Assembly: GCA_021769425.1 (NCBI GenBank)
Contig: JAETSX010000022.1
Coordinates: 1 to 64,000, forward strand
Length of the DNA: 64,000 bases
Reading direction: 5' to 3'
Source of the DNA: Eubacterium sp.
GTDB lineage: Bacteria > Bacillota > Clostridia > Lachnospirales > Lachnospiraceae
Position 1 is the stretch's first letter. The number at the start of each line of letters is the position of its first letter. Shown here piece after piece: positions 21,295-40,701 of the stretch. Position numbers and translations under genes: made by a program. The notes below the pieces were generated by a model. That model worked only from the letters and a program-made list of their open reading frames with translations, ran no database searches and was not told where the DNA came from.

Positions 21295-22050
21295 ATGAAA
21301 GCAGTAATTCTGGCAGCAGGGAAAGGGACTCGAATTGGAGAATTTACAGCAAAAAACAACAAATGCTTAATTCCAGTAGAGGGTCAACCGCTCATTACAT
21401 ATCATATTGATAATTTTGCTAGAGTAGAGTGTATAACAGAATGTATCATTGTCGTAGGATATAAAGCAGAGGGTATTATTCAGCAAGTGGGCCATTCTAG
21501 GAATGGTATGAAGATTACATATTGTTATCAACCAGAAGACAAAGAAAGAGGTATTATTCCATCTATTGAAAGTGCAATTGATGTTATTAATGATGATTTT
21601 ATCTTAGCGCTTGGTGATGAATTCGTTTACAAAAATCATTACCAGGAAACGATTGAGGAATTTTATAAAAGGCAATTGCAATGTATGGTTGGTGTGATAG
21701 AAACAGAAAATATTAATGAAGTGAAAAAAAATTATACATTTCGAATTCGAGAGAACGGTTGCCTCTATGATTTTGTAGAGAAACCAGAAATACCCTATAA
21801 CTCCTATCTCGGAACGGGAAATATTATTTTTCGAAAAGATGTATGTGAGCTGCTTTCCTTAGTACCAATGAATTCTATTCGTAGAGAGAGAGAATTAGTG
21901 GATCTATTCCAACGAATCATTCAAAAAGGAAATTTGATTCATCCATATATTGTGGGAGAAGCATATTTTAATATTAACACAATTCATGATTATGAAAGAC
22001 TAAAACAATTCCTTAACTCAAGGAGAGATAATGAGTATGTTTATGAGTAG
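21295..22050 (+). CDS. Sugar-phosphate nucleotidylyltransferase (NTP_transferase family)
   Basis: 251 residues. It begins MKAVILAAGKGTRIGEF, the nucleotide-binding loop of the family, and KCLIPVEGQPLITYHI matches the following Pro/Lys region. ILALGDEFV supplies the metal-binding Asp. FVEKPEIPYNSYLGTGNIIF is the usual sugar-binding segment. It would activate a sugar 1-phosphate to an NDP-sugar. GAGGGAGAA precedes the ATG. The first gene of the island, it overlaps the glycosyltransferase by 20 nt, so its product is likely used by that enzyme. The kinase at 39535 could supply the phosphorylated sugar. Confidence 0.85.
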   Translation: MKAVILAAGKGTRIGEFTAKNNKCLIPVEGQPLITYHIDNFARVECITECIIVVGYKAEGIIQQVGHSRNGMKITYCYQPEDKERGIIPSIESAIDVINDDFILALGDEFVYKNHYQETIEEFYKRQLQCMVGVIETENINEVKKNYTFRIRENGCLYDFVEKPEIPYNSYLGTGNIIFRKDVCELLSLVPMNSIRRERELVDLFQRIIQKGNLIHPYIVGEAYFNINTIHDYERLKQFLNSRRDNEYVYE

Positions 22051-23350
22051 AAAAAAATATAAGATCTTGTTCTTTATGATACCTTTATATGGGCATATCA
22101 TACCGAATCTTTCCATGATTCGAACATTAATCGACCAGGGATACGAAGTGTATTGTGTAGGGGCGCCAAAGCATTTTCAGATGTTAGAAGAGTGTGGGGC
22201 TACATGTATCACCTATCATCCAATGATCTTAAACAGTTTTGAAATGAAAATGAATAAAGCGCAAGTGAAACAGCGAGAAAGTGTGAAATCACATTTTATG
22301 GCTCTATTTACAAGAGATAATTTGGAGTGGAATATAACAAACGGCAAAGAATTATATGGGCTTGCTTGTAATACATTAGAACCATATATGAAGGAGATTG
22401 CTCCAAATATTATTCTATATGATTCGACGGCAGTTTGGGGGTTGCTATTAGGAAGAAAATATCACTTGCCTTGCATTGATATGGAAGCAGCGACAGACAT
22501 GGATGAAGTTACTTCTATTTATGAAAAATTTTATGAAGAAGTGGTATTAAGAGAAATCAAGGTGGATATGGAGTATGGAGATTATCACCTTAGACCAGAG
22601 GAAGAGATTATATCAACCAAGGAATACATAGAGTATAGTCAGGCAGTAACTCGAAAATTGAATAAAAAGGCAAATAAGTTGGCAGGCCTTCATGGAGACA
22701 AACTTCTGAAAGCAGATATGAAATTTGCATATGTAACGAAAGATTTTTATGACGCTTATACATCTGAATTAGAGCATATTCAATTTTGTGGATTTGATTG
22801 TAAGATACCACCAATTGCAGAAAAAAAAGATGGAATTTTTGTTACACAAGGAACGGTAACAGATCCGTATTCGATGCGATTGCTAGTACATATTTCAAAA
22901 GCGCTTATTTCGAGTGGAGAGAAGGTGACGATAACAACAGGAGGAGATTTTTATTACGAAGATGTCAAAGAAAAACTCAGTAAGTTACCAGAGAAGATGA
23001 ATCTTTCTTCATTTGTGAATCAGTTGGAGGTTTTAGGCAGTCATAAATTGATGATTTCTCATGGAGGACTTTCAGGAATCCGAGAAGCAATTTTAAATGA
23101 GACTCCAATGGTTGTCTATCCAATCAATTATCACTGTTTTCAATCTGCATTAGCAATAGAAAAATTAGGAATTGGAGTTTGGTTAAAAGACAGACAATTA
23201 TCCCAGGGAAACGCAAAAGAGTTATTAAAAGCAGTGCAAGAAGTTCTTTCTAATCCAAACTATGTAGGGAGAATTAGAGAGGTGAAGAAAGAATTTTTAG
23301 AAGAATATAAGAAAAATAAAGTATTAGAGTATCTAGATTCACTTAGCTAG
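22031..23350 (+). CDS. GT1 (MGT/UGT-like) glycosyltransferase
   Basis: 439 residues with a GT-B fold pattern. The N-terminus YKILFFMIPLYGHIIPNLSM has the His of the acceptor site used by macrolide-type glycosyltransferases. The C-terminal donor-binding region has GIFVTQGTV and LMISHGGLSGIREAI followed by TPMVVYPI, matching the HGG..S..EA core of the family. No signal peptide, so it should act in the cytoplasm on an intracellular acceptor, plausibly the RiPP precursor. AGGAG with a 5-nt spacer precedes the ATG. It overlaps the nucleotidyltransferase gene. Confidence 0.87.
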   Translation: MSMFMSRKKYKILFFMIPLYGHIIPNLSMIRTLIDQGYEVYCVGAPKHFQMLEECGATCITYHPMILNSFEMKMNKAQVKQRESVKSHFMALFTRDNLEWNITNGKELYGLACNTLEPYMKEIAPNIILYDSTAVWGLLLGRKYHLPCIDMEAATDMDEVTSIYEKFYEEVVLREIKVDMEYGDYHLRPEEEIISTKEYIEYSQAVTRKLNKKANKLAGLHGDKLLKADMKFAYVTKDFYDAYTSELEHIQFCGFDCKIPPIAEKKDGIFVTQGTVTDPYSMRLLVHISKALISSGEKVTITTGGDFYYEDVKEKLSKLPEKMNLSSFVNQLEVLGSHKLMISHGGLSGIREAILNETPMVVYPINYHCFQSALAIEKLGIGVWLKDRQLSQGNAKELLKAVQEVLSNPNYVGRIREVKKEFLEEYKKNKVLEYLDSLS

Positions 23351-23374
23351 ATCACAAGAGAAAGGAGAAAGAAC

Positions 23375-23683
23375 ATGGTAGAAGATATAGTGACATGCGT
23401 TGTTCTAATAGTTTTTATTGCAGGTTTTGCAACATTATTACGTATGGGGAAAGGTACATCTTTGATTGCAGGAATCAAAAATGTGCCAGAAGAAGAAAGA
23501 GAAAAAACTGCAAAAGGTTTTTCAAAAGTATTGTATCTAATTTCATTAGATGTCATCGTTTTTATGGTTTCTTTGATTCTTGAAAGCAAAATTTTACAAA
23601 ATATTGCTACTGTAATCATTTTCGTTATCATTATTGGCGCAGTTGCGCTTGCAAATCTGAAAAAGGATAAAAAAGATGAGTAA
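23375..23683 (+). CDS. DUF3784-family small membrane protein
   Basis: 102 residues. An N-terminal helix is followed by the family-typical cytoplasmic segment GKGTSLIAGIKNVPEEERE, then two helices (about 50-70 and 75-95) and a Lys/Asp tail. DUF3784 proteins often accompany antimicrobial peptide or transporter genes in Bacillota; the biochemical role is unknown. An AAAGGAGAAAG ribosome site precedes the ATG. The end overlaps the next gene by 8 nt. Possible immunity protein by size and context. Confidence 0.7.
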   Translation: MVEDIVTCVVLIVFIAGFATLLRMGKGTSLIAGIKNVPEEEREKTAKGFSKVLYLISLDVIVFMVSLILESKILQNIATVIIFVIIIGAVALANLKKDKKDE

Positions 23684-24536
23684 AATATCAAGCGTAATCC
23701 AAGCATTTATAACGTTTGTGATAGCAGGAGTCATACTAAACGTAACACAACTGGTTGTATCGATTGTATATCAAAATATCTTAGTTGTTCGTTACACTGG
23801 TCAAGGAATTGAAGATGAAGCTGTGATTTTAGAGATGCTTACTACAGAGCTTAGTTCAACAAACTATTTTACGATGCTTTCTATGGTTAGTATTAGTGTA
23901 ATTGCAATTATCTATGGAATTCATTACTGGATTCATTATTATGAAAAAGGTGATCAGAAGTTAGTAAAATACTTCAACGTCAATCATGTTGCAGTTACTG
24001 CAATTTTTATAATCGGTATTATATTAGCAACCTGTTGTTATTGTTTACTTGTTAGTAGCGATACAATGAGTTTTAGAAAAGAATTCTTATCTGTACAGAG
24101 CTTATCTTTTTCATTTGGTATGTCAGCGGTGTTAGCAGAGCTAATACTTTTGCCAATTGCAGAAGAAACATTGTTTCGTGGAGTCATTTTTAAAAGATTA
24201 AAAAGATCGTGCTCTATCTACAGTGCAATTGTAATTCAGGCATTATTCTGCGGCATATTTCAGCTGAATGTAAAAAAGGGTATTTATTTTTTCTTACTTA
24301 GTATGCTTCTAGGATATATGATGGTGGAAAAGAATTCTGTTCTATATTGTATACGAATTCGAATTTATCTAACTGTGATTTCATTTGTTGTATGGAAGTG
24401 GTTATATCAGATGCTGCCAATGAATTTGGCATTTCATATTGTTTTAGCAATGATGGCAATTTTGCTCTTAGGTACAGGCTTTTACTTGATGATGAAAGAC
24501 AAAACACAAAAGAAAAATGAATTAGACGAAGGATGA
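23676..24536 (+). CDS. CPBP-family membrane protein with degenerate protease motifs
   Basis: 286 residues with about seven to eight membrane helices. The first CPBP motif is intact (LPIAEETLFRGVIF, EExxxR). At the second site, where the family has FxxxH, the sequence is FCGIFQLN, with Gln in place of His. No HxxxN/D third motif can be seen in IRIRIYLTVISFV. The protein may therefore be a non-catalytic relative or an immunity protein, in contrast to the intact CPBP gene at 38653. It overlaps DUF3784 and is followed by the first radical SAM gene after 13 nt. Confidence 0.75.
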   Translation: MSKISSVIQAFITFVIAGVILNVTQLVVSIVYQNILVVRYTGQGIEDEAVILEMLTTELSSTNYFTMLSMVSISVIAIIYGIHYWIHYYEKGDQKLVKYFNVNHVAVTAIFIIGIILATCCYCLLVSSDTMSFRKEFLSVQSLSFSFGMSAVLAELILLPIAEETLFRGVIFKRLKRSCSIYSAIVIQALFCGIFQLNVKKGIYFFLLSMLLGYMMVEKNSVLYCIRIRIYLTVISFVVWKWLYQMLPMNLAFHIVLAMMAILLLGTGFYLMMKDKTQKKNELDEG

Positions 24537-24549: not shown

Positions 24550-25623
24550 ATGAAAGAGTTATTTTCTGCAGGGGTTGATGTAACAAAAAAATGTACATTA
24601 CGCTGTCTACATTGCTTTAATTTTAGTGGAGATGAGAAAGAAACGACATGCGATGAAGAGTTGACAGACAAAGAATTAATTACAATGGCAACAAACATTT
24701 TGGAGTGTAATCCAAAATCAATGTGTATGTGTGGCGGAGAACCTTTATTACGAAAAGATGCAATTATGGAAATTGCCAATATTGCAAAAGACAAGTATCC
24801 TAACAGCTCTATCAATATGGTATCGAATGGTCAATTAATGACTGCACAAGTTGCAGAAGACTTGTGGAAAGCAGGATTTAAAAATATCCAGATTAGTTTA
24901 GATGGAGCAAGTCCTGAGACAGTGGATTGGCTTAGAAATAAAGAAGGAATGTATGAAGCTGCAACGTCTGCACTTCGTTATTTATCAGAGAGTAGAAAAC
25001 GTTTGGGAATCGACACCGATATTTGCATTTCTTTCTGCCCGACAAAAAAGAATCTTCCAGAATTAGAAGAAGTAATCGATTTCTGTGAATCACTTGATAT
25101 AAACTCTTTCCGTGTACAACCACTTATGCTCTTAGGAAGAGCGAAAGAGTTCCTCCGAGAATATGTATTATCAAAAGCGGAATACCGTGATTTAGCAAGA
25201 AGATTAAAGAATCGTAATAGCATAAACGCAAGAAGCGGAGAAAGGCTTGAAACAAAATGGGGAGACCCAATGGACCATTTACTCATTGAAGATGTGGATG
25301 AACTTCGATTTATTCAAGTAAACGCTTATGGTGATGTCCTATTCACACCATATATTCCAATTGCCTTTGGTAATATTAGAAATCGTAGTTTGAAAGAATA
25401 TACAGAATTTGATTGGAATAAAGTTTGGAATCATGAACTTTATAAGTATGTACGTTCATTGATGGTGACACCGGAACATATGGATTTAAGTGAAATCGTT
25501 GCTTTGCCATCCATTGGTTATGGACAAGTTCGCTTCGACTTATTAGATCCGGACTGGAGCAACAAGATGGATGATTTATTGATTCAATTACAGAAAGAGC
25601 ATGCGGAGGTACATGGTGCGTAA
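24550..25623 (+). CDS. Radical SAM peptide-modifying enzyme 1
   Basis: 357 residues. The radical SAM cluster motif is Cys15-x3-Cys19-x2-Cys22 (KKCTLRCLHCFN), followed by MCMCGGEPLLRK, NMVSNGQLM and ISLDGASPETVDWLR. The C-terminal region aligns with the SPASM/Twitch area (IQVNAYGDVLF, then FGNIRNRSLKEY), but the auxiliary-cluster cysteines are absent. Cys59/Cys61 (CxCGGEP), Cys153 (SFCPTK) and Cys169 are shared with the second paralogue; one could donate a hydrogen atom, as in peptide epimerases. AAGGAG precedes the ATG at 24550. It presumably acts on the 60-residue precursor at 28126, guided by the PqqD-like protein. Exact chemistry unknown. Confidence 0.87.
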   Translation: MKELFSAGVDVTKKCTLRCLHCFNFSGDEKETTCDEELTDKELITMATNILECNPKSMCMCGGEPLLRKDAIMEIANIAKDKYPNSSINMVSNGQLMTAQVAEDLWKAGFKNIQISLDGASPETVDWLRNKEGMYEAATSALRYLSESRKRLGIDTDICISFCPTKKNLPELEEVIDFCESLDINSFRVQPLMLLGRAKEFLREYVLSKAEYRDLARRLKNRNSINARSGERLETKWGDPMDHLLIEDVDELRFIQVNAYGDVLFTPYIPIAFGNIRNRSLKEYTEFDWNKVWNHELYKYVRSLMVTPEHMDLSEIVALPSIGYGQVRFDLLDPDWSNKMDDLLIQLQKEHAEVHGA

Positions 25624-26659
25624 AATAGGTTTAATTGCATTTGATATTACTAGAAGATGTACGCTGAATTGCTTACACTGTTACAATCATAGCGGTGAAA
25701 ATAACGATTGGAAAGAGTTATCGGATGAGAAATTGGATCGAATACTAAGAGATTTAGCATCCGTTGAGCCAGATTCCTTTTGTATCTGTGGAGGGGAACC
25801 ACTTTTACGGAAAGAAAGAGCCTTTTCTTTTGTTGAAGAAGGCAAACAAAAGTATCCATCCATGGATATCAATATGGTTACGAATGGCGAGATAGTTACT
25901 AGAGAAGTGGCAGAACGAATGGTTACGTCGAATCTATCCTCAATTCAATTCAGCATGGATGGAGCAAGTAGCAAAACCCATGATTGGCTTCGAAATAAAC
26001 AAGGTGTTTTTCAAAAAGTGATTCAGGCAATTAAGTATGTCGATGAGGAGAGAGAGCGTTACAATAGTGATCTTCTAATCAGTATCGCATTTTGCCCAAC
26101 CAAAGAGAATATTCATGAAATTGATGAAGCAATTACGTTGTGTGAAGAGTTGCATGTTGAGTTGTTCCGTGTACAACCATTGATGTTAATCGGTCGAGCA
26201 GAAGAAAACTTAAATGAAAAACTACTGAATCGAAAAGAGTATAGTGAACTTTCTAGAAAGTTACATAAGAGAAAGATAGATCATGCAATCTCATCGAGAG
26301 TCATGGTTGATTGGATTGATCCACTCGATCATATTATGGTAGATGGTTCAAAAGAAATTAGCTTTATTCAAGTCAATGCCAGTGGAGATTTACTATTAAG
26401 CCCTTACATACCAATTGCCGTTGGCAATTTGAAGAACCATAGTATTCATGAGTATTTAGAGCGTGATTACTTTGAAATGTGGGATCACAAGTTATTTCAA
26501 CTAATGAAAGATTCAATAAAGTTAGCTGAGCAGATGAATTTGTTGCAGTTAAGGAACGAATTACCGTCAGTTGGAAAAGGAGTTATTGCCTTTGATGCAT
26601 TAGAAGATGACTGTATCGCAAAGATGGATGCATTTTATGAAAAACTAATCCGAGAATAA
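25613..26659 (+). CDS. Radical SAM peptide-modifying enzyme 2
   Basis: About 348 residues, a clear paralogue of the preceding gene. The motif RRCTLNCLHCYN binds the catalytic cluster; FCICGGEPLLRKE, NMVTNGEIV, FSMDGASSKTHDWLR and IAFCPTKEN are all conserved. SPASM cysteines are again missing (IQVNASGDLLLSPYIPIAVG). It overlaps the first gene by 11 nt. GGAGG at 25605-25609 sits close to the ATG at 25613; the GTG at 25616 is equally possible and the ATG at 25601 less so. Two tandem paralogues suggest different positions or successive steps on one precursor, or an obligate heterodimer. Confidence 0.85.
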   Translation: MVRKIGLIAFDITRRCTLNCLHCYNHSGENNDWKELSDEKLDRILRDLASVEPDSFCICGGEPLLRKERAFSFVEEGKQKYPSMDINMVTNGEIVTREVAERMVTSNLSSIQFSMDGASSKTHDWLRNKQGVFQKVIQAIKYVDEERERYNSDLLISIAFCPTKENIHEIDEAITLCEELHVELFRVQPLMLIGRAEENLNEKLLNRKEYSELSRKLHKRKIDHAISSRVMVDWIDPLDHIMVDGSKEISFIQVNASGDLLLSPYIPIAVGNLKNHSIHEYLERDYFEMWDHKLFQLMKDSIKLAEQMNLLQLRNELPSVGKGVIAFDALEDDCIAKMDAFYEKLIRE

Positions 26660-26700
26660 CTTCATTAGCTACAAATATTATTATAAGAATGGAGAAGTTT

Positions 26701-27177
26701 ATGATTAAGGAACTGTTTAGCGAAGATGTCGTTGATATCACTATGTTTTTAAAAGAGAAGAAAGTAGGAAAAGCAGAAGATTATATAATCAATTATGATT
26801 ATGTTCTTGAGCAATTTAATGCTAGAGCAATTCGAAAATCATTTTTTGATGATGAGTTAGTAGCATATGCGCAAGTAGATGATGACGAAGAGATTCAAGA
26901 TATAATTCTTGTTGATATCAAGGGTGAAGATAATTTTAATTTTTGTAATATTAGTTTGTGCAATTTTAATAATACAGAACTAATGAAATACATGCTTGAG
27001 AATATCTGGGAGAGAAGAGAAAACTTACTGAAAGTTAAATTTGTAATCAACGGTAAGAGTCTAACAGAAGAAACGAAACAACATTTATTTGATATCGGGT
27101 TTGAGAAAGAGATTTGTTTAAGAAAATGTGATGACGAAGATAAGAGCATTTATGTATTTTCGTTCTTTAAAAAATAG
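26701..27177 (+). CDS. Hypothetical protein, GNAT-like
   Basis: 158 residues, soluble and acidic. The order of elements (helix with NYDYVLEQFNARAI, strand DELVAYAQVD, then two strands, a helix, and a C-terminal HLFDIGFEKEICLRK) resembles GNAT acetyltransferases, where the end often reads as a helix followed by GF+KE. The acetyl-CoA pyrophosphate loop is not recognisable. GGAGA with a 6-nt spacer supports the ATG at 26701. Located between the radical SAM and PqqD-like genes, it is likely a maturation factor. Family assignment is tentative. Confidence 0.5.
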   Translation: MIKELFSEDVVDITMFLKEKKVGKAEDYIINYDYVLEQFNARAIRKSFFDDELVAYAQVDDDEEIQDIILVDIKGEDNFNFCNISLCNFNNTELMKYMLENIWERRENLLKVKFVINGKSLTEETKQHLFDIGFEKEICLRKCDDEDKSIYVFSFFKK

Positions 27178-27207: not shown

Positions 27208-28050
27208 ATGAATGAAGAAATACTGATTAAGATGAAAAAGGCTTGCCCTAAGAAATTGGAATCTGAAATCGTGGGTTTTAGCCAAAGCAAAAATGGCGAA
27301 TATTCTTTTTCCACTTGTAAGTTTAGTGCATTGGGAAAAATAAGAATCAATAAAATAGCAAAATTTATATTAGATTCTAGCAATGGTTTTAATACGATTG
27401 AAGATATTGCTCATAAAATGAAAGATAGATATTTTATTCCAAAGAATGTAGATATCTATGCAGATATCGATAGCGCAATTCATCAAATGTGGAGAATTGG
27501 TGTTATTGATATTCCAGAGGATAATTATCTTCTAGAGCGATATGAGGCACAATGTGATTCTTATACGTTGCGTTGCCTTCAATATGATGCATCAGAAGAA
27601 GCAGCTCAAATGTTCCGTGACCATTTAGAATGCACATCACCATATATAAACTATGATCTTGCAACAACTCCTAATACATTAAAGGTATCATGGATTAATG
27701 CAATTGAAGGTACATTTGAAGTTCGAGATGCAAGTGATGAAGTAGTTGTATGTATGACGGTCCAACCGGACATAAGAATTCAAGGGTTACGCATCTTAGC
27801 CATTATGGTGAAGGATAAAAATATTTCAACAGCTGTACTAAATCAATTCTTCCAATTTATATATAAGATTTACTGTGATATCTTCCAGATGAGTACTCAG
27901 AAGCTCCCAAAAGAAGATTTCATATTACAATATTATTCATTTGAAGATACTCTTTGTCATGAAATTTTCAAAAAAGATGGTGAGTTAAAGAAGGAAATCA
28001 ACAATAAGAATGTATATATCTATTCTTGTAAGATGAAAGACTTTGCTTAA
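27208..28050 (+). CDS. PqqD-like (RRE) peptide chaperone with extra C-terminal domain
   Basis: 280 residues. Residues about 20-110 follow the PqqD/RRE winged-helix pattern: FSALGKIRINKIAKFILD, NGFNTIEDIAHKMKDRY, then a helix DIDSAIHQMWRIGVIDI. Such domains bind RiPP leader peptides and hand them to the modifying enzymes. The C-terminal half (about 115-280) contains a beta-rich region and an ending (HEIFKKDG, VYIYSCKMKD) reminiscent of GNAT folds, but no cofactor motif is clear. It ends 75 nt before the precursor gene. The ribosome site is weak (GAAAGATGGTGTAG). Confidence 0.75.
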   Translation: MNEEILIKMKKACPKKLESEIVGFSQSKNGEYSFSTCKFSALGKIRINKIAKFILDSSNGFNTIEDIAHKMKDRYFIPKNVDIYADIDSAIHQMWRIGVIDIPEDNYLLERYEAQCDSYTLRCLQYDASEEAAQMFRDHLECTSPYINYDLATTPNTLKVSWINAIEGTFEVRDASDEVVVCMTVQPDIRIQGLRILAIMVKDKNISTAVLNQFFQFIYKIYCDIFQMSTQKLPKEDFILQYYSFEDTLCHEIFKKDGELKKEINNKNVYIYSCKMKDFA

Positions 28051-28486: not shown

Positions 28487-29215
28487 ATGCTGGAAATTCT
28501 TAATTTTTCAAAGACTTATCAAGGAGTGAAAAAAGCAGTATCGGACGTTTCACTTACCGTAGAAGATGGAGATTTATTTGCATTTATTGGACATAATGGT
28601 GCAGGAAAAACAACAACGATTAAAGCAATTGCAGGAATTCTTGATTTTGAAGAAGGCGAGATTTTAGTGAATGGTAAGTCGATGAAAGATAATCCATTAG
28701 AATGCAAAAAGGAAATTGCATATATACCGGATCAGCCAGTACTATATGAACACTTATCAGGAATACGGTATTTGAATTTTATTAGTGATGTATACCACAT
28801 TTCAAGTACAGAGAGAAAGAAAGCCATCGTTGATTTGGCTACAAAATTTGAACTATTAGAAAATCTTGAAAATCCCATTCATACGTATTCGCATGGTATG
28901 AAGCAGAAACTTTTACTAATTTCAGCATTCGTTCGAAAACCAAGATTACTTATTTTAGATGAACCATTTGTAGGGTTAGACCCAAAGGCGAGTCTTGTAT
29001 TAAAACAGGAAATGAATGATTTGTGCCAGACTGGCAGCTCGATTTTTTACTCCACTCATGTGTTGGAGGTTGCAGAAAAATTATGCAACAAAGTTGCTAT
29101 GATTAATGAAGGAAAATTAGTGTTTACGGGTGAAATGAACGATATTACAGAACATGGTACACTTGAGAATATATTTTTACAGTATGTTGATTCCAATAGG
29201 GAGTGCCAACCGTGA
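28487..29215 (+). CDS. ABC transporter ATP-binding protein (CcmA/NatA-like)
   Basis: 242 residues. Walker A GHNGAGKTTTIK, Q-loop AYIPDQPVLY, signature YSHGMKQKLL, Walker B LLILDEPFVGLD, and H-loop FYSTHVLE are intact. This ATPase type pairs with ABC-2 permeases; the natural partner is the permease at 31286. The two were separated by the IS66 insertion 2-3 codons after this stop. Likely exports the mature peptide or gives immunity. AGGA precedes the ATG with a 6-nt spacer. Confidence 0.9.
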   Translation: MLEILNFSKTYQGVKKAVSDVSLTVEDGDLFAFIGHNGAGKTTTIKAIAGILDFEEGEILVNGKSMKDNPLECKKEIAYIPDQPVLYEHLSGIRYLNFISDVYHISSTERKKAIVDLATKFELLENLENPIHTYSHGMKQKLLLISAFVRKPRLLILDEPFVGLDPKASLVLKQEMNDLCQTGSSIFYSTHVLEVAEKLCNKVAMINEGKLVFTGEMNDITEHGTLENIFLQYVDSNRECQP

Positions 29216-29328: not shown

Positions 29329-29739
29329 ATGGCAGGTACTCGCAAAGCCCGTGTTCCGATGGCGGAACAGATCAGGCTTATCAATGAATGCCGCCAGAGC
29401 GGCATGACAGATGCTGACTGGTGCCGTGAAAACGACATTGCAGTAAGCACCTTTTACATCTGGGTCAGCCGCTGTCGGAAAACGGCAGCGGATCAGATCC
29501 CACCACCGAATTACGGTCATCTTGAGGTTCCCCGCCCGAAACAGGACGTGGTTCCCATTGACATTGTTCCGGATCACGTTCCGGAACCGCATACAGCATC
29601 ACAGATGCAAAACCCGTACCTTGACAATTCACATACGATTGAAGTTGCCATGAAGGATATCACGGTCCGCATCAGCAATGCTGCAGATCCGGTCCTGCTC
29701 ACCAGGACATTCCGCCTGCTTCAGGAGCTTTCATGTTAG
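29329..29739 (+). CDS. tnpA: IS66 accessory protein TnpA
   Basis: 136 residues. The N-terminal helix-turn-helix region (AEQIRLINECRQSGMTDADW, then CRENDIAVSTFYIWVSRCRK) is the usual IS66 OrfA DNA-binding domain. The C-terminal part is a spacer ending in the typical LLTRTFRLLQELSC. It appears intact and overlaps tnpB by 7 nt, as in complete IS66 elements. Base composition is closer to the flanking chromosome than to the AT-rich island, consistent with later arrival. Confidence 0.9.
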   Translation: MAGTRKARVPMAEQIRLINECRQSGMTDADWCRENDIAVSTFYIWVSRCRKTAADQIPPPNYGHLEVPRPKQDVVPIDIVPDHVPEPHTASQMQNPYLDNSHTIEVAMKDITVRISNAADPVLLTRTFRLLQELSC

Positions 29740-29930
29740 GCGATATCTCCGGACTTGAAAAGATTTATATTGTCTGCGGCTACACTGATATGCGGAAATC
29801 CATTGATGGACTATGCGCTGTTATAGAAGATCAGCTTAGGATGGATGCGGCGTCCAGTGCTCTTTTCCTTTTCTGTGGAAGAAGACGGGACTGGCTTCCA
29901 GTGCGAAAGATATCCAGCTTCGAGAGCTGA
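29733..29930 (+). pseudogene. tnpB: Truncated IS66 TnpB
   Basis: Starts normally (MLGDISGLEKIYIVCGYTDM, RKSIDGLCAVIEDQ, ALFLFCGRR), then breaks at about residue 50 and terminates at 65. Native TnpB is about 115 residues. The sequence after the break is already the tnpC N-terminal region in another frame, so a deletion has joined tnpB to tnpC. Confidence 0.85.
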
Positions 29931-29956
29931 AAGATACGATATCACAACTGAAAACA

Positions 29957-32920: not shown

Positions 32921-32992
32921 AATATAACTTCAAATGAAAAAGAAAGGAAAAGTGAATGTATTCAATTAGAATGCATGATTACAGGAAACGTT

Positions 32993-34660
32993 ATGGAGGA
33001 TTATTTTGGGAATGGCCTTATGGAATTTTGCAAACAGTACATAAGGAAACATAATAAGTTATTTGTATGCTTGTTAGTGTTTAGCTTTTTGCTTGGAGTA
33101 ATCTCATTGACAAATACATATATGATTGGTATGTTAATCGATATGATTCAAGATAATGGCACATTTCAATGTGTAATTTGGTTCCTGGTTGTATATGTGT
33201 TAATTCAATTAACGAAAATGGGAGTAACTTATGTCATGCAATATTTAATAGCAAAATATAATTTACTCTTTGCGAATGAAGTGAATGAGAACGTATTAAA
33301 ACACTTACATAAAGTAAAGATTCTGGAAATAAAAAAATATGATAGTGTTTATCTATCTGAGCGAATTAATTCAGATTCTAATGTATTAGCTAATTTTATG
33401 CTTAGTTCCATCGAATCTGCATTTATGCAAGGAGTTCTATTGCTGGTATTATTACTTATTATGATTATGATTGGATGGAAGTATGCAATTTTACTTGTAT
33501 GTGTCTGTCTAACATATGCAATTGTCTTTTTAGCATTCCGTAAGCAATTATATATGAAAATGAAAGCATATCGTGAAGAGACAGCGAATTACTTAAGGGG
33601 AGTCAACGAACAGATAACATTCGGAAACTTTATACAAATCAATAATTTGCAAGAATCATTTGTACAGCGTTTGAAAAATTCATTTGCTTCTTTATTAAAA
33701 CAAGGTATGTCCTTACAGATTACAAGTAATTCTTATGGATTATTGCAAAGTATGATATTCCTTTTTATTTCAAGCGTTATTATTCTTTGTGCGGGGAAAG
33801 GCTTAATTGATCATGAGATTACGGTTGGACAATTAGGTATGATACTTACTTATACAAGTACTGCATTAGGAACAATTAGTGGGCTTATTGGATTTGGTCA
33901 GGTTTATCAGAATTCAAAAACCTCCTATGACCGTTTAACCGAATTAAGTCAATTAGAGCAGGTGCAAAATGGAGAGTTAGAGTGCGAAGCTGTAAACAGT
34001 ATTTCTTTAGAGAATGCAAGCTTTTCGTTTGATCATAATGTTGGTCTTCAAAATCTTACGTTCGAATTTAAGAAAGGGAAGAAGTATCTCCTATTAGGGG
34101 AAAATGGCTCAGGAAAATCAACGTTAATCTATCTAATCCTTGATCAGTATCAGTACTTAACTGGAACAATTAAGATTGATGGTGTTGATTTAAGGCAGTA
34201 TAATATGGCACAGATAAGAAAGAAACATTTTGCAGTGATGGAGCAAGAACTTGATTTCCCACAGAATTCAATTCTTGATTACATTAATATGTGTAACCAA
34301 ACTTCGTATACAGAAAAACAAATGATGAAGATATTGTATGCAAAAGGATTAGACCGCTTGGCATGCGACTTGCTAGATTTGGTGGATCGTGGTGTAATCA
34401 ATATTAATTTTACATCGGGTGGAGAAAAGCAAAAGATTGAGATTGCTCGAGTTATATTGAAGGATACGGATGTAATGATTTTTGATGAACCAACGGCTCA
34501 TCTTGATTTTGAATCAAGAGATGAGTTTTATCAATATATTGATTCTGTGAAAGAAGATAAAATCGTAATTGTTGTATCTCATATGAAAGAGGAGCGGGAA
34601 CACTTCGATGAGATCATCTATATGAATCAATATGCATTGGGCAAAGATGATGCAGAATAA
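32993..34660 (+). CDS. ABC exporter, fused membrane and ATPase domains (type I)
   Basis: About 555 residues. The membrane domain (about 20-315) has six helices, starting near KLFVCLLVFSFLLGVISL. The ATPase domain (about 335-555) has Walker A LLLGENGSGKSTL, signature FTSGGEKQKIE, Walker B DVMIFDEPTAHLD and H-loop VVSHMK. There is no N-terminal C39 peptidase, so leader removal must be done elsewhere (candidate: the CPBP protease at 38653). The start at 32993 (after AGGAAA) is uncertain; an in-frame ATG at 32975 also exists. Likely exporter of the mature peptide. Confidence 0.87.
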   Translation: MEDYFGNGLMEFCKQYIRKHNKLFVCLLVFSFLLGVISLTNTYMIGMLIDMIQDNGTFQCVIWFLVVYVLIQLTKMGVTYVMQYLIAKYNLLFANEVNENVLKHLHKVKILEIKKYDSVYLSERINSDSNVLANFMLSSIESAFMQGVLLLVLLLIMIMIGWKYAILLVCVCLTYAIVFLAFRKQLYMKMKAYREETANYLRGVNEQITFGNFIQINNLQESFVQRLKNSFASLLKQGMSLQITSNSYGLLQSMIFLFISSVIILCAGKGLIDHEITVGQLGMILTYTSTALGTISGLIGFGQVYQNSKTSYDRLTELSQLEQVQNGELECEAVNSISLENASFSFDHNVGLQNLTFEFKKGKKYLLLGENGSGKSTLIYLILDQYQYLTGTIKIDGVDLRQYNMAQIRKKHFAVMEQELDFPQNSILDYINMCNQTSYTEKQMMKILYAKGLDRLACDLLDLVDRGVININFTSGGEKQKIEIARVILKDTDVMIFDEPTAHLDFESRDEFYQYIDSVKEDKIVIVVSHMKEEREHFDEIIYMNQYALGKDDAE

Positions 34661-34696: not shown

Positions 34697-37174
34697 ATGA
34701 GAATTATATTAAAGCATATTAGAAACAACTTACTTGAGAAAAAAATTCGTAGTTTTGCCACTGTCCTTTTTTTAGTTTTATTATCGGTAGTTATCTATAT
34801 TATTTTAAGTATGCCATCCATCATAAGAGAGCAGTATGAAAATACATACCGTGAAATATATGGTGAGATCGATGTTGCCATTTTTAAAGAAAATGCAGCT
34901 TTATTTCAGGTAGATAAAGTTGATTTTAGTGATTTTGAGTATGAGAGCTTACTCACAATTGAAAAGTCAACATACTTGCAATCAGGTTCTGAGCAAATGT
35001 CCGTCTATATTGTTGGTGCAAGTCCGCAGGATGCAGTAAAGATGAACTTTATTCGAGAGAAGAACGTATCGGATTTGAAGAAAAATGAAGTAGTAATTTC
35101 GGTGAAAACTGCTGAAAAATTTCGAGCTTTTGTAGGGGATACATTATCAGTAGTAACATCGTCTGGAAAGTTATACAGTCTTAGGGTAGCAGAGATTGTA
35201 CCTGAAACAGGGTATTTTTCTATGGAACAGGATTCGGATTTTCTCTTCGTCACTTATGAAACGGCAGAATCCATCTTTGAGTTAAATGGAAAGGTTAGCT
35301 ATGCTTATCTTAAGGTGAATACAGAAGGACTTTCAGAAATTGTAGAGGAATTAACAGAACAGAATCCATCATTTTTTGTGCATCAAATGATAGATGAAGA
35401 TACCATTGCTCAATCTGTCAATCATATTTTGTATTTGTTTATTCTAGTATTTCTTATACTTTTTACAATGCTATTATATTCATTAGTAACGTTGAATCGA
35501 AGTATATTAAGAGATCGAATCAATGCAATGGTAGTTTTTAAAAGCTTAGGCGCTGACAGAACATCTCTTTCCTTGATCTTGGGAATCGAATCAGTGTTGT
35601 ATGGAATATTCGGTGGGTTTTTTGGAAGCATAATTGGCGGAATTTTGATGAAATACATACCTAATTATTTTGGCGATTCGGTAGTGGAAGGAGAAATCCA
35701 AGGAAGATTTCAGATAAAAACGGCATTGATTGTAGTTGGAGTCTCAATGGTAATCCAACTGGTTTTAAGTATGGGAGCAATTCGAACAATTACTAAGAAA
35801 TCGTTGCTCGATATGATGAAACAGAAAAAAGGATTTCTTAAGAGCTATTTGGTTCAAATGCTTGGTGGAATTACACTTGTTTTGTGTGGAATGATTCCCT
35901 ATTATTTCGATTCATTGAGTAATTCGATTCTTTTTATTTTTGAAATGTTGTGCTTCTTATTTGGAATTGGTCTTATGATTCCGTTGGCATTCTATTTTTT
36001 GATATGGTTGCTTGAGCGAATATTAAGATGTTTTTCCAATTGTTTGTTATCACTTTCTGCATTGAATATTCGTACGAAAAGCTTGATTGCGGACCATGTA
36101 CGCTTGATTACCGTGAATGCAACCTTATGTATTCTGTTAATTACATTAAGCGTATCTTTTGTCGATTATTTTGATTCCTTTGAAGATAAGGTGCAAGCGG
36201 ATTATATTGTATCTTATATTAGTCAATCAAAGAGTGTATATGAGATTGTAAATGAATTTGATGGCGCTAAGGAATTCTCTCTATTATTTTTGAATCAAGC
36301 AGTGATGGAACATGAAAGGCAAAGCACGTCCATTATGATTTGCAGTAATTATGAGTTTGAAAAACAAAGGGATTTCTTTTGCGGATACGAAGTCCATGAT
36401 GATGTAAGTCTTGATCTAAAAGAGAATGAGATTATATTAGACGAACATATTATGAAGTTATACGATGTATCTGTAGGTGATACGATCCGCTTGCAACTTG
36501 GTAGTGGAGCAAAGAAAAAACATTATGAATTTTACGTAATCGGAACTTGTGATGGAGCAGGAATCACGTTAAGTCGGTTAGTCGGAGTAGTTAGCCAAAA
36601 GGCATATGAGACCATGTTTGGAGATATCCCACAGTTTTTATTGATTCGTATGGCAGATTCAGGTGTATCTTTAGGAAGTTTGAAAGAGAAGTTGCCGGAT
36701 GCACTCGCAGTGGTTCAGACAAAAGAAGAGTTTGTTCATGAGCAATTAAAGCTTCCAAGGACATTTGTAAGGATTATTACAGCTGTTTTAATTTGTGGTT
36801 TGCTTGGTGGTTTGCTTGGATTGATTTGTAATCAGATAAATGTACTAGAAGAAAGAGAAAAGGATTTGGCTATTTATTATACGACTTGTATGACCAAAAA
36901 GAAGATTCTCCAAATGATTGAAATTGAGGAAGCAATGATTTCAATATTTGTATTAGTGTTTTCTTTTGCTATTAGTGCAATGTTGTATCAGTTGCTATCT
37001 AAGTTATTAGAATCAATGTATCTGTGCTTCCCATTGCATTTTTATATCGGGAAAACTTTGAGTGTTGTATGTGGAGTCCTTGTTCTTTTATTTGTATTTA
37101 TGATTGGAAGTACAAAGATCAAGCTAAGAAAGGCAAACTATATCAATATAATTAAGAAGGATGCAAACATGTAA
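34697..37174 (+). CDS. ABC transporter permease, FtsX/MacB-like, duplicated
   Basis: 825 residues. A helix at about 17-38 is followed by an extracytoplasmic domain (about 40-240), then helices near 243-267, 292-320 and 340-360. Two central helices, a helix at about 475-495, a second extracytoplasmic domain to about 690 and three terminal helices complete it. FtsX-like signatures are AMVVFKSLGADRTSLSLI and AIYYTTCMTKKKILQMIE. GGACGGAGG precedes the ATG. It pairs with the following ATPase (19-28 nt downstream). Such pairs in bacteriocin loci usually give producer immunity; here that is inference. Confidence 0.85.
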   Translation: MRIILKHIRNNLLEKKIRSFATVLFLVLLSVVIYIILSMPSIIREQYENTYREIYGEIDVAIFKENAALFQVDKVDFSDFEYESLLTIEKSTYLQSGSEQMSVYIVGASPQDAVKMNFIREKNVSDLKKNEVVISVKTAEKFRAFVGDTLSVVTSSGKLYSLRVAEIVPETGYFSMEQDSDFLFVTYETAESIFELNGKVSYAYLKVNTEGLSEIVEELTEQNPSFFVHQMIDEDTIAQSVNHILYLFILVFLILFTMLLYSLVTLNRSILRDRINAMVVFKSLGADRTSLSLILGIESVLYGIFGGFFGSIIGGILMKYIPNYFGDSVVEGEIQGRFQIKTALIVVGVSMVIQLVLSMGAIRTITKKSLLDMMKQKKGFLKSYLVQMLGGITLVLCGMIPYYFDSLSNSILFIFEMLCFLFGIGLMIPLAFYFLIWLLERILRCFSNCLLSLSALNIRTKSLIADHVRLITVNATLCILLITLSVSFVDYFDSFEDKVQADYIVSYISQSKSVYEIVNEFDGAKEFSLLFLNQAVMEHERQSTSIMICSNYEFEKQRDFFCGYEVHDDVSLDLKENEIILDEHIMKLYDVSVGDTIRLQLGSGAKKKHYEFYVIGTCDGAGITLSRLVGVVSQKAYETMFGDIPQFLLIRMADSGVSLGSLKEKLPDALAVVQTKEEFVHEQLKLPRTFVRIITAVLICGLLGGLLGLICNQINVLEEREKDLAIYYTTCMTKKKILQMIEIEEAMISIFVLVFSFAISAMLYQLLSKLLESMYLCFPLHFYIGKTLSVVCGVLVLLFVFMIGSTKIKLRKANYINIIKKDANM

Positions 37175-37201
37175 TAAAAGATTGTAAAGGAGATGAGGTT
37201 T

Positions 37202-37873
37202 TTGGAAACTTTGATTGAATTAGATCATGTGGGAAAATCGTTCATAGACAATAAACAGACCATACAAGTATTAAGAGATGTGAATCTAGAGATCAAAGAA
37301 GGTGAATTTATCTCTCTGATGGGGGAGTCTGGAAGTGGAAAATCTACTTTATTATACATCATTGCGGGTTTTGAGTTTGCCACATCAGGTGAAATGAAGC
37401 TTCTAGGAAAGTTATATACATCTTTAGATGAAAACAGTAGAGCAAAATTACAGAGAAATAACATTGGATTTGTATTTCAATTCTACAATTTAATTCAGAA
37501 CCTCAATGTAGAAGATAATATTTTGCTCCCAATTTCAATTTTAGGAAAGAAAAGAGCGAAAAAAAAAGCATTGGAGGAAATTCTTGAATACGTTGGATTG
37601 GAGGATAAACGAAAGAAAAAAGTAGCTGAATTATCTGGTGGAGAACAGCAGAGAGTTGCAGTTGCTCGAGCAATTCTAATGGATATGAAAATCTTGTTAG
37701 CAGACGAGCCGACCGGAAATTTGGATCACAAAAATAGTGTAAAGATTATGGAGCTATTTCAAAAGGTAAATCAAGAGAAAAATATGACGATTCTACAAGT
37801 AACACATTCGAAAGCAATGGCAGAGTATGGAAGTAAAATATATCGGTTACAAGAAGGTATTCTTTATGCATGA
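37202..37873 (+). CDS. ABC transporter ATP-binding protein (MacB/LolD-like)
   Basis: About 223 residues. Walker A GESGSGKSTLLY, Q-loop FQFYNLI, signature LSGGEQQRVAVARA, Walker B ILLADEPTGNLD and H-loop LQVTHSK are intact. The TTG at 37202 is 9 nt after AAGGAG and is the likely start; the ATG at 37193 touches the ribosome site and is unlikely to be used. Partner of the upstream FtsX-like permease. The last codons overlap the TraX-like gene by 8 nt. Confidence 0.9.
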   Translation: METLIELDHVGKSFIDNKQTIQVLRDVNLEIKEGEFISLMGESGSGKSTLLYIIAGFEFATSGEMKLLGKLYTSLDENSRAKLQRNNIGFVFQFYNLIQNLNVEDNILLPISILGKKRAKKKALEEILEYVGLEDKRKKKVAELSGGEQQRVAVARAILMDMKILLADEPTGNLDHKNSVKIMELFQKVNQEKNMTILQVTHSKAMAEYGSKIYRLQEGILYA

Positions 37874-38624
37874 TAAAGTTAAGATAGGGATTTCATCAAA
37901 TGCATTGAAAAATATCGCTGCTGTTTCCATGGTTTGCGATCATATTGGATATAGATTAATCGAGCATGGTTTACTCAAAGATTACGATCTAAGCCAAGAT
38001 ATCGTTCGATTATTAGCAAATCCTTCGGTGAGAAACTATGTTCTTTTGGATGCCATTTTGCGTGGTATTGGTCGAATTGCTTATCCGATTTTTGCTTATC
38101 TAATCGTGGTTAGTTTTTTAAAAACAAGAAGCGTCTATCATTTTCTGGCGCGAATGCTGATTTTTGCAGTGATAGCAGAAGTCCCATTTGATTTATTTTG
38201 GGCAGGGGATGTGATCAATTTCGAACATCAAAATGTATTATTTACATATTTGTTGGGCTTGCTTGCAATTTTATGTATTGAACGAATGTGGAAAAAGGAG
38301 TTACACCATAAGTCTCTTACGATTGGAGCGGTCGCGTTATGTATTGCGTCAGGATATATATTACATGTAGACTATGATTTTGTGGGAGTGCTTGTAATTG
38401 TACTTTTTTATATTTATAGAAATCATTCACTATACCGAGATATTAGTGTCGTCGTGGTACTCACGCTACAATATCTACTTGACGTAATTAGTTGCGTGAG
38501 TGTTGTTTTTATTCAGATTTGCAGTGGAGAGTATCATAAACCAAAACGATTTCGATATTTTTTCTATTGGTTTTATCCAATACATATGCAGATTCTTATT
38601 TTACTTGAAAAAATATTGTTTTAG
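37866..38624 (+). CDS. TraX-family membrane protein
   Basis: 252 residues with about seven to eight helices. The TraX pattern is clear: SSNALKNIAAVSMVCDHIGY, then ILRGIGRIAYPIFAYLIVV, FAVIAEVPFDLFW and FTYLLGLLAIL, and a C-terminal FYWFYPIHMQIL. TraX of the F plasmid N-acetylates pilin. Homologues are common in gut Bacillota, with unknown substrates. In this operon it might acylate the peptide N-terminus or a cell-surface target. Translationally coupled to the ATPase upstream. Confidence 0.85.
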   Translation: MHDKVKIGISSNALKNIAAVSMVCDHIGYRLIEHGLLKDYDLSQDIVRLLANPSVRNYVLLDAILRGIGRIAYPIFAYLIVVSFLKTRSVYHFLARMLIFAVIAEVPFDLFWAGDVINFEHQNVLFTYLLGLLAILCIERMWKKELHHKSLTIGAVALCIASGYILHVDYDFVGVLVIVLFYIYRNHSLYRDISVVVVLTLQYLLDVISCVSVVFIQICSGEYHKPKRFRYFFYWFYPIHMQILILLEKILF

Positions 38625-38652
38625 CAATCAATATAGAAGAGGTGATGAAAAT

Positions 38653-39513
38653 ATGACAAGTGCAAAAAGGTTTTGTTATAACTATCCGATTCTTACTGCT
38701 TGTATTGTACCAATCCTATATCTTCTAGTTGTGCGACAATGTATTATGAGCATTGCAATTCGTATTTTTTCGTCTTATACGGGTAGACCGTATAGTTCGT
38801 TTGCTTCCCTAGCGGTTGGCGAAGGAGTGACCATTCTTGTCGATCTTATGGTTTTAATGCTTTGTGGAAATATACGAATTCTGATACAGCGGGGAATATC
38901 GCGAAACAAGAAAGTTTTATATAGTTCCTATATAATTTTTGAAATTCTAGTTTTGTTTGCAATCAATGTGCACCAAATCATCTATTATAAAGATTCAGCA
39001 AGGAGTCCGCTTACTATTCTAGGATGTGTAATTTATCTACTCTTGGCATCAATATCTGAAGAGGTTATGTTTCGTGGATTTTTAGTTGAAATTCTTGCTT
39101 CGAAATATCTGAATCGCAGAGGCGGAATTTGGATAGTGACTATTGTTTCAAGTATTGCATTCGCAAGTATACATTTGTGGAATCTATTCATCCCAGGAGC
39201 ATCGGTTGGAGGAATCCTTGCACAGACGGTAAATGCAATGCTAATTGGCGCATATTTTACAGTGATTTTTTTATGGACGATGAGTATATGGGTGTCTGTA
39301 ATTCTACACTTTGCATATAATTTCTCACAGTTGCTTCGCAGTGTTTGCTTCGTAGGAAAAGATGTTTCAGAGGTGATTTCGAATTACGGAACGACATTTC
39401 ATTCTCTGTTTTTCTTGGTACATATGTTTGTCTTTATCATTGTAATTTGCATTATGATTATAATGATGAGGCATCAAAAACATATGCCAAGAAAGTGCTC
39501 TGAATTAGAATAA
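38653..39513 (+). CDS. CPBP-family intramembrane metalloprotease (intact motifs)
   Basis: 286 residues with about seven helices. All three CPBP/Abi motifs are present: ISEEVMFRGFLVEIL (EExxxR), FASIHLWN (FxxxH) and LHFAYNFSQLL (HxxxN). Family members cleave leader peptides of bacteriocins or give self-immunity. This is the best candidate in the locus for trimming the precursor, since neither exporter carries a peptidase domain. GAGGTG precedes the ATG at 38653. Confidence 0.87.
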   Translation: MTSAKRFCYNYPILTACIVPILYLLVVRQCIMSIAIRIFSSYTGRPYSSFASLAVGEGVTILVDLMVLMLCGNIRILIQRGISRNKKVLYSSYIIFEILVLFAINVHQIIYYKDSARSPLTILGCVIYLLLASISEEVMFRGFLVEILASKYLNRRGGIWIVTIVSSIAFASIHLWNLFIPGASVGGILAQTVNAMLIGAYFTVIFLWTMSIWVSVILHFAYNFSQLLRSVCFVGKDVSEVISNYGTTFHSLFFLVHMFVFIIVICIMIIMMRHQKHMPRKCSELE

Positions 39514-39534
39514 AGCTTGAAAGAGGTAGTAATC

Positions 39535-40701
39535 ATGGAACAAAAGAGAGTAAGATTAGAATTACTTCGATATGTCAAAGATAAATTACATTATTTCGGA
39601 AAAATTGAGGATGTTGAGATGGAAGAAATTGGAGATGGGAATCTTAATTATGTATTTCGATTTACGAGCCTTGCAGCAGCAAAATCTTTGATTATAAAGA
39701 AAGCGGAAAAATGTGCTAGATTTTCGGATGATTTTAAGATTCCATTATCAAGAACTGGAATTGAATCTTTCTATATTCATTCTTTGAATCATTTGATTGG
39801 TCGATATTTGCCAACGCTATATGGTACAGATGTTGCGAATGGAATTCTAGCAATGGAGGACCTTTCGAACTATAAGATTTTACGAAGTGAACTTATGAAG
39901 TTTCATGCCTTTCCTTTCTTGCCGGAGGCTTTGGTAGATGCACTTTCGAAAGCATTGATGGGAACTACCTCATATTGTATAGAACAAGTAAAAAGAGAAC
40001 AGATGGTGGGAACATTAAAAGATAATCCACTCAATGAGATTATTACAAAGACTCTTGTTTTTGAAGAACCGTACAATAACTGCTATCATAGAAATAATGT
40101 ATTAGCAATGAATCAAGACTATGTTCAAAATGAACTGTATCATGATGAGGCGTTGTTAAAGATTAGCACGGAATACAAAGAAAAATTTTTTTCAGAAAAG
40201 CAAGCCTTGTTACATGGAGATTTGCATACAGGTTCTATATTCATTAAAGAAGATGCATTCAAATTCATTGATTTCGAATTCTCTTTTTGGGGACCAATTG
40301 GATTCGATTTAGGATTTCTTCTTGCAAATTTCATATTTGCATATGAAAGGGCATGCCACGATTCTAGTAAGGAAAGCAAGGTATTTCAAGCATGGATGAA
40401 AGAAGTTATTTTGTATGTTTATCCACAATTTACGAAGAGAAGTCGTAAGATTCTTTGTGATGCAAATGTAAATCAAAAAGAGGCAGAGCGATTTTTGAAT
40501 GAGATCATGCATGATACTATTGTTTATGCTGGAATTGAGCTAATTCGTCGAACGGTTGGAATGGCAAATGTGAAAGATATTACAACCATTGCACCACTTA
40601 CAGAGCGTATGAACGCAGAACGAAGAATCATTCAGGTAGCAAAAAAATTAATGCTTGAAGCAAAGAATTGGGATGACCTAAAGGATATTATGAGTTTTTG
40701 A
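39535..40701 (+). CDS. MtnK-like sugar kinase (APH fold)
   Basis: 388 residues. The catalytic loop LLHGDLHTGSIFI and the metal-binding FIDFEFSFWGPIGFDLGFLL closely follow the 5-methylthioribose kinase pattern (HGDLHTG, then DxEF..YGP.GFD.G), rather than choline or aminoglycoside kinases. NLNYVFRF matches the glycine-loop region. MtnK phosphorylates the anomeric oxygen of methylthioribose or 5-deoxyribose. No mtnA is visible beside it, so a specialised role fits. Options are making a sugar 1-phosphate for the nucleotidyltransferase/glycosyltransferase pair, or salvaging 5'-deoxyadenosine products from the radical SAM enzymes. Last gene of the maturation operon. Confidence 0.83.
   Translation: MEQKRVRLELLRYVKDKLHYFGKIEDVEMEEIGDGNLNYVFRFTSLAAAKSLIIKKAEKCARFSDDFKIPLSRTGIESFYIHSLNHLIGRYLPTLYGTDVANGILAMEDLSNYKILRSELMKFHAFPFLPEALVDALSKALMGTTSYCIEQVKREQMVGTLKDNPLNEIITKTLVFEEPYNNCYHRNNVLAMNQDYVQNELYHDEALLKISTEYKEKFFSEKQALLHGDLHTGSIFIKEDAFKFIDFEFSFWGPIGFDLGFLLANFIFAYERACHDSSKESKVFQAWMKEVILYVYPQFTKRSRKILCDANVNQKEAERFLNEIMHDTIVYAGIELIRRTVGMANVKDITTIAPLTERMNAERRIIQVAKKLMLEAKNWDDLKDIMSF

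Follow-up and report, generated by a model that had tools for sequence, protein, structure and literature searches.

Peptides with alternating D and L residues, as in the polytheonamide proteusins (PoyA-F), can form a membrane channel (PubMed Central, PMC8183687). Within the polytheonamide set, PMC11285071 reports that PoyE makes eight N-methyl-asparagines and that PoyB and PoyC are B12-dependent C-methyltransferases, and PMC8326336 describes PoyD-type epimerases as having a single iron-sulfur (Fe-S) cluster, an RRE (recognition element of ribosomally synthesized and post-translationally modified peptides, RiPPs) and a critical cysteine, and the epipeptide enzyme EpeE as having two [4Fe-4S] clusters. 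Here we analyzed a 64,000-nucleotide stretch of an Eubacterium sp. genome (contig JAETSX010000022.1, positions 1 to 64,000; the window), which is part of a 109-kb contig in a genome of 4.9 Mb and encodes two tandem radical S-adenosylmethionine (SAM) proteins, rSAM1 and rSAM2, an RRE-GNAT fusion protein and a 60-residue precursor peptide. We find that this is very likely a RiPP locus, and by analogy with polytheonamide we put at about even chances a product that is an epimerized, aliphatic, membrane-active D/L peptide made by Val and Ala epimerization.

The polytheonamide set, which combines aliphatic, Asn-rich cores with a methyltransferase and B12 radical SAM enzymes, is the closer described parallel to the window locus. 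The likeness lies in aliphatic Gly/Ala/Val cores, Asn-x-Asn-rich in relatives of the window locus, in a radical SAM enzyme that is assisted by an RRE and has one predicted cluster and, in the relatives only, in B12 radical SAM proteins and a methyltransferase of the Asn type. Unlike that of the PoyA-F system, the leader here has about 20 residues with a YxxP motif and is not nitrile-hydratase-like or Nif11-like, and the locus is therefore not a proteusin; membership in that class was also rejected on the 60-residue length of the precursor. Unlike in the PoyD type, the RRE is here a separate protein with a GNAT fold, and a C-terminal RRE fusion to the radical SAM protein occurs only in one relative, L027. 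An initial annotation of the window had instead compared the locus to epipeptides (EpeXEPAB / YydF-J), which share a short peptide with a hydrophobic core, a radical SAM enzyme, a membrane protease and an ATP-binding cassette (ABC) pair. That comparison holds in so far as EpeE ranks third by fold, but EpeE has a second Fe-S cluster, whereas the window enzymes lack SPASM or auxiliary cysteines and are accompanied by an RRE-GNAT protein and a protease of another class; the closer polytheonamide set had not been named. SkfB of the sactipeptides is the best sequence and fold match of the radical SAM core, and assignment as a sactipeptide or ranthipeptide was rejected on a window precursor without Cys and enzymes without SPASM cysteines. 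Lasso peptides share the YxxP-type leader and an RRE of the TbiB1 kind, and were rejected on the lack of an asparagine-synthetase-like cyclase or B2 protease among the annotated window genes. The initial annotation had put the locus forward as a candidate undescribed one; in agreement, no matching gene set was found in the open-access PMC literature, and neither rSAM1 nor rSAM2 exceeded the cut-off of any NCBIfam model among the 25 best listed.

Short YxxP precursors beside a radical SAM family

Relatives of the locus were collected by an alignment scan of genome contigs, with the best 80 of 550 confirmed stretches used; ten loci (L019-L028, 289-475 bits to the family profile) were taken as family and 70 (L029-L098, none above 200 bits) as controls. 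Single-sequence scans with rSAM1 of genome and viral contigs gave 17 and 4 pattern stretches, respectively, among which no relative was confirmed, and a plasmid search returned 193 records, all below 60% identity, the one taken on being a Collinsella hit. Locus L023, from the same species as L006, was left out of distinct-locus counts, and three weaker hits (L127, L128 and L129) were kept outside the family. Differing searches found the family in 3/195, 4/392, 3/391, 7/398 and 4/397 genomes, the Eubacterium genome itself included each time. The recurring core comprises a radical SAM protein with CxxxCxxC and CxCGGE motifs and no SPASM cysteines, an RRE-GNAT protein, a half-ABC exporter and a short YxxP precursor with an aliphatic core, and the CxCGGE motif, RRE-GNAT protein and exporter are present in all five strong held-out genomes. 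In Thermoanaerobacterium saccharolyticum (L019) the order is radical SAM, GNAT, a second and different radical SAM, RRE-GNAT and precursor, and the same order recurs in L123 and L124, two held-out genomes of one genus. Fragments of another RRE and radical SAM gene lie upstream of the intact T. saccharolyticum set (L019:9623-10445). The Eubacterium genome carries a second family member on another contig (L007, C51:44000-61447) with a YEPP peptide.

The window precursor, which is preceded by a clear Shine-Dalgarno sequence and followed 3' by an inverted repeat (GAGAATTTC/GAAATTCTC; both read directly), has no NCBIfam match and only a sub-threshold Pfam match. Precursors were called by a filter that requires YxxP within the first 31 residues and a following core with at least 60% AVGNLIMF and at least 38% AVNG; several precursors had already been spotted by eye when the filter was drawn up, and the held-out loci are its test in unchanged form. 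Across 19 family loci (368 kb) the filter returned 17 open reading frames (ORFs), each no more than 3 kb from a radical SAM gene, and 14 of the 18 distinct family loci have a passing precursor, compared with three ORFs in three of the 70 control loci (1.1 Mb). Among held-out loci a passing precursor was found in three of five strong and one of three weak cases. This association upholds the proposal of a RiPP locus, and the check that the initial annotation itself had named, conservation of the precursor next to the radical SAM genes, came out in favor, the precursor being kept in other genomes. Some family loci depart from the filter: the L007 precursor fails on composition and was included on inspection by eye, L020 and L021, whose contigs stop just past the enzymes, yielded none, and L027 has an Asn-rich ORF without an in-frame start codon. 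Outside the family, a filter-passing YxxP small ORF lies at a more distant radical SAM locus (L129:9351-9530) and two YQRP small ORFs lie in L127 (7512-7691 and 10987-11172); with ends rich in Ala/Val/Trp or Leu/Trp, these hint at a wider superfamily.

When cores are taken to begin 18 residues past the YxxP tyrosine, Val and Ala are present in all 21 of them and no other residue type is. L028 and L106 have cores built from just four residue types, Val, Leu, Asn and Ala, and the enzyme chemistry common to the family must therefore act on aliphatic residues; by the same argument thioether formation, aromatic crosslinking and Ser/Thr chemistry cannot be the family-wide activity. Cys is absent from the window core and occurs in the cores of L019, L105, L123 and L124, all with an additional, different radical SAM protein, and also in that of L007, a locus without such a protein.

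Fold and candidate chemistry of the maturation proteins

As the initial annotation had claimed, rSAM1 and rSAM2 are tandem SPASM-less radical SAM paralogues (PF04055), with 43% identity and, as in the rest of the aligned family, S-x-Y-x-P at the place where SPASM proteins have their cysteines. A 20-row family alignment keeps CxxxCxxC throughout, with C61 in 20/20 rows and C63 in 19/20, and has no invariant cysteines besides C20, C24, C27 and C61 (C63 nearly so). Ten rows came from a scan with CxCGGE as its search pattern and were left out of the motif count; among the 11 aligned rows found without that pattern, ten have CxCGGE, as do all five strong held-out hits (338-405 bits). A 19-row tree places rSAM1 and rSAM2 as sisters (support 99/98), with the T. 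saccharolyticum protein joining them next (100/99). The AlphaFold2 model of rSAM2 has a mean predicted local distance difference test (pLDDT) score of 87.5, and its Foldseek ranking has SkfB first, BlsE second and the epimerase EpeE third, closely followed by PqqE and viperin; this ranking does not decide between reactions, and the models support folds rather than chemistry. A heme-type radical SAM identity (NirJ/AhbD) was considered and rejected.

The leader-binding protein, described in the initial annotation as PqqD-like, does contain a PqqD/RRE part and is in fact an RRE-GNAT fusion. Its PF05402 match scores 22.1 bits, just below the cut-off of 23.4, and a profile of 16 RRE-GNAT proteins matches the RRE TbiB1 with its N-terminal part (E 1.5e-4) and polyamine acetyltransferases with the remainder (best E 8.5e-6). 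Modeled with AlphaFold2 (pLDDT 82.4), the window fusion protein has its best Foldseek match in a GNAT structure (E 2.1e-8). The acetyl-CoA motif [QR]xxGx[GA] was not found in 15 of the 16 RRE-GNAT proteins, the lone match (L106, residue 134) looking accidental, nor in three free GNAT-like proteins, which suggests that the GNAT fold would be a scaffold rather than an acyltransferase. In L027 a single 649-residue ORF (L027:9768-11717) fuses radical SAM, RRE and GNAT. The main text of a 2025 RRE survey (PMC12710340) does not mention GNAT or acetyltransferase; the survey gives W/Y/LxxP/L/I as the motif recognized by several RRE groups, and the YxxP leaders here, judged by sequence, are in line with it.

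Partner genes in the relatives point, by analogy, to the polytheonamide parallel as the best guide to the radical SAM reaction. A methyltransferase with an NPPF/NPPI motif, whose best models are sub-threshold PrmC/HemK-like N5-glutamine methyltransferases, occurs in all five loci with Asn-x-Asn cores (L025-L028 and L106) compared with one of 11 others (Fisher p 0.0014), L027 being counted among the five with its start-less ORF and the exception being L006 with its gene 4.3 kb away; the held-out L125 and L126 carry it as well. B12 radical SAM proteins occur in 5/18 loci (L007, L016, L022, L028 and L106; L007 has two, the second named by eye) and also in the held-out or weak loci L122 and L129. 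In L126 (4825-14082) the radical SAM, RRE-GNAT and methyltransferase genes lie beside two acyl-carrier-protein-like and two adenylate-forming-like ORFs (by eye), and the substrate there is possibly carrier-bound.

Several observations weigh against Val and Ala epimerization to a D/L peptide as the family's activity. The methyltransferase and B12 radical SAM genes are both absent from the window locus (19-46 kb), so the polytheonamide parallel rests on relatives, and the window core includes Tyr, Trp, Thr, Arg and Glu. L125 and L126, two of the five strong held-out loci, yielded no precursor. Those hits were retrieved with a profile of the first family set, which contains CxCGGE rows, and are thus not wholly independent; three weaker held-out hits (204-214 bits) lack CxCGGE. 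No counterpart of the EpeE and PoyD donor cysteines was identified, those positions not having been aligned with the family. Finally, the best sequence match of the radical SAM family is, as by fold, SkfB, a sactipeptide maturase, viperin ranks nearly level with EpeE in the fold list, and three precursors weakly match class IIb bacteriocin or SdpC models below cut-off.

The SkfB match bears on an alternative in which the radical SAM pair performs another aliphatic modification, such as dehydro-residue formation, C-C linkage or conversion of Val to cyclopropylglycine, and leaves the peptide all-L. A crosslinking maturase as top fold match and two diverged paralogues side by side, which suggest more than one reaction, would both suit such chemistry, and TvgB is reported to convert Val to cyclopropylglycine (PMC9062424). 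TvgB substrates, however, have a repeated TVGG motif that was seen by eye in none of the 21 cores, and the methyltransferase and B12 partners of the relatives fit the polytheonamide set; we hold this alternative to be unlikely, if a serious one. Viperin rank, together with 50-61 bits to pVip models, would be expected if these were antiviral viperins and not peptide maturases, but rSAM1 scores only 54.9 bits against the NCBIfam viperin cut-off of 180 and the family has RRE and precursor partners, including the natural radical SAM-RRE fusion of L027, and we rejected this identity as barely credible. The weak bacteriocin and SdpC matches could point to a membrane peptide resembling class II bacteriocins or SdpC in which radical SAM editing is a minor feature, and SdpI/DUF1648-like proteins do lie near several relatives (by annotation in L006, by motif in L016 and by eye in others). 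Against this, seven of ten precursors checked had no match at all, and precursors are accompanied by a dedicated RRE protein and one or two radical SAM enzymes, which makes such a product improbable. D/L epimerization stays the preferred reading.

Gene block, sugar genes and agr system

Each gene class that the initial annotation had placed on the plus strand at 21295-40701 was recovered (Table 1), the MtnK-like kinase among them. The gene run stands as described but continues to about 44072 and holds a broken IS66-like element. From about 20 to 44 kb all block genes in the ORF list and in these searches lie on the plus strand, with 32-40% G+C in 2-kb windows, and the flanks have 43-53% except for 36% at 2-4 kb and 41% at 44-46 kb. 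ORFs resembling IS256-type transposases precede the block (19210-21050, by eye), a weak DDE_3 match follows it at 44175 (21.3 bits versus a cut-off of 28.6), and the IS66-like remnant splits the ABC-2 ATPase from its permease with both neighbors seemingly full length. The block is a mobile-looking stretch of chromosome, an island, and it ends with a complete agr quorum-sensing system directly 3' of the RiPP genes. Pairs of LytTR and GHKL genes also lie near L007, L024 and L028, and an AgrB-like ORF adjoins L024 (by eye).

Table 1. Genes and elements of the block, in order along the window
Feature	Position	Strand	Evidence and remarks
Sugar-1-phosphate nucleotidylyltransferase (NTase)	21295..22050	+	PF00483, 94 bits; best NCBIfam models AglF/RmlA-like, all under cut-off
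GT1 glycosyltransferase, macrolide-GT-like	22031..23350	+	PF04101, PF00201 and PF06722 over cut-off
Small membrane protein, DUF3784	23375..23683	+	PF12650, 36.1 versus 28.1; possible immunity protein
CPBP membrane protein 1 (CPBP1; Rce1/CPBP)	23676..24536	+	PF02517; EETLFR, no FxxxH after it
Radical SAM protein rSAM1	24550..25623	+	PF04055, 68 bits; CxxxCxxC, CMCGGE, no SPASM cysteines
Radical SAM protein rSAM2	25601..26659	+	PF04055, 75 bits; CICGGE
Free GNAT-like protein	26689..27177	+	Placed by alignment with GNAT part of RRE-GNAT family
RRE (PqqD)-GNAT fusion	27208..28050	+	PF05402 at residues 45-100
Precursor peptide, 60 residues	28126..28308	+	No Cys; YESP leader; strong Shine-Dalgarno
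ABC-2 type ATPase	28487..29215	+	PF00005, 98.9 bits
Broken IS66-like element	29329..31157	+	ORFs, named by eye; insertion outside the pathway
Permease with 12 transmembrane segments, partner of ATPase at 28487 (ABC-2)	31265..32920	+	PF09847, 36.0 versus 33.2; relatives adjoin L028 and L106
Half-ABC exporter, recurring core part	32975..34660	+	PF00664 and PF00005; relatives in other loci
FtsX/MacB-type permease	34697..37174	+	PF02687, PF12704
ABC ATPase, partner of FtsX permease	37193..37873	+	PF00005, 125 bits
TraX-like protein	37827..38624	+	PF05857, 135 bits versus 25
CPBP membrane protease 2 (CPBP2)	38653..39513	+	PF02517, 63 bits; three motifs intact
S-methyl-5-thioribose kinase family protein	39535..40701	+	TIGR01767, 299.4 versus 275
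LytTR response regulator (AgrA-like)	41202..41930	+	PF04397, PF00072
GHKL histidine kinase (AgrC-like)	41839..43218	+	PF14501, 79.5 bits; true start probably later
AgrD-type autoinducer precursor	43333..43479	+	TIGR04223, 46.4 versus 19
AgrB	43419..44072	+	PF04647, 123.7 versus 23

Two start sites merit comment: rSAM2 has an alternative start at 25613 preceded by a Shine-Dalgarno-like GGAGG, and the longest CPBP2 ORF begins at 38500, its start being shifted by eye to 38653. Both proteins annotated as CPBP-type belong to PF02517, with CPBP2 keeping its three motifs (EEVMFR, FASIH and HFAYN) and CPBP1 departing from them. A Pfam search with the free GNAT-like protein returned nothing over cut-off, and the best NCBIfam model for GT1, TIGR01426, scores 116.7 bits, under its cut-off of 260.

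The claim that the sugar module and TraX belong to a single pathway with the peptide fared less well. NTase, GT1, TraX, the FtsX permease, both CPBP proteins and the kinase have no relatives in the 17 other distinct loci (phmmer E<=1e-4), and because of this the link of the sugar module and TraX to the pathway is one of gene order. GT1 was found in only the Eubacterium genome itself among 145 relatives and is absent from the 144 others (E<=1e-30). With insertion sequences within and around the block, these absences suit an arrangement in which the RiPP core from CPBP1 to the half-ABC gene is real and NTase, GT1, kinase and TraX are separate cargo on the same island, serving for example envelope glycosylation. 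The shared strand, the tight spacing (NTase and GT1 overlap by 20 bases and a 25-base gap separates GT1 from DUF3784) and the same low G+C speak against separate cargo, an arrangement to which we nonetheless give slightly less than an even chance.

The kinase allows a more specific proposal. Related kinases are reported in PMC6079011 to phosphorylate 5-deoxyribose, a radical SAM by-product sugar, at C1 to 5-deoxyribose 1-phosphate, and the methylthioribose-kinase family protein of the window could do the same, as in 5-deoxyribose salvage by DrdKIA. The MtnK-type kinase is single-copy in the genome, in which a nucleosidase was detected and no MtnA isomerase, leaving it without the usual salvage route; unlike in DrdKIA, an NTase and GT1 are present. 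In a speculative scheme that we consider a long shot, 5'-deoxyadenosine from rSAM1 and rSAM2 would pass through the nucleosidase to the kinase, the resulting 5-deoxyribose 1-phosphate would be activated by NTase, GT1 would place a 5-deoxypentose on the D/L peptide and TraX would add an acetyl cap. Continuation from 5-deoxyribose 1-phosphate by NTase and GT1 is the boldest inference in this scheme.

Proposed pathway and its implications

We propose that the product of the locus would be a ribosomally made peptide, the aliphatic core of which is remodeled one residue at a time. From its fold and the leader motif, the RRE of the fusion protein is predicted to grip the YESP leader of the precursor, with the GNAT fold probably acting as a scaffold. 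rSAM1 and rSAM2, with one predicted Fe-S cluster each, may then take the C-alpha hydrogen of Val and Ala and return hydrogen on the opposite face, C61 and/or C63 of CxCGGE being the candidate hydrogen donors. The outcome would be a D/L core able to form a membrane-spanning beta-helix, as polytheonamide and gramicidin do. The intact CPBP protease, other proteases or both would remove the leader near the start of the core and the half-ABC protein would export the product, while the ABC-2, FtsX/MacB and DUF3784 proteins are likely to provide immunity. More tentatively, TraX might cap the N terminus and the kinase-NTase-GT1 trio might glycosylate the product or the envelope. The adjacent agr genes probably time production.

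Single loci of the family were found in each search in about 1-2% of the sampled genomes or in fewer. The chemistry can be tested directly with the minimal set, namely a precursor, an RRE-GNAT protein and a single radical SAM enzyme, and CxCGGE gives a sharp mutational handle on the hydrogen donor. Fusion to a leader reader would put the GNAT fold, which here lacks its acetyl-CoA motif, to a new use. If the epimerization proposal is true, D/L channel-like peptides would extend beyond the long-leader proteusins: anaerobic Bacillota, Collinsella and a few further lineages would make them with a compact system that is genetically simple and uses a leader of 20 residues.

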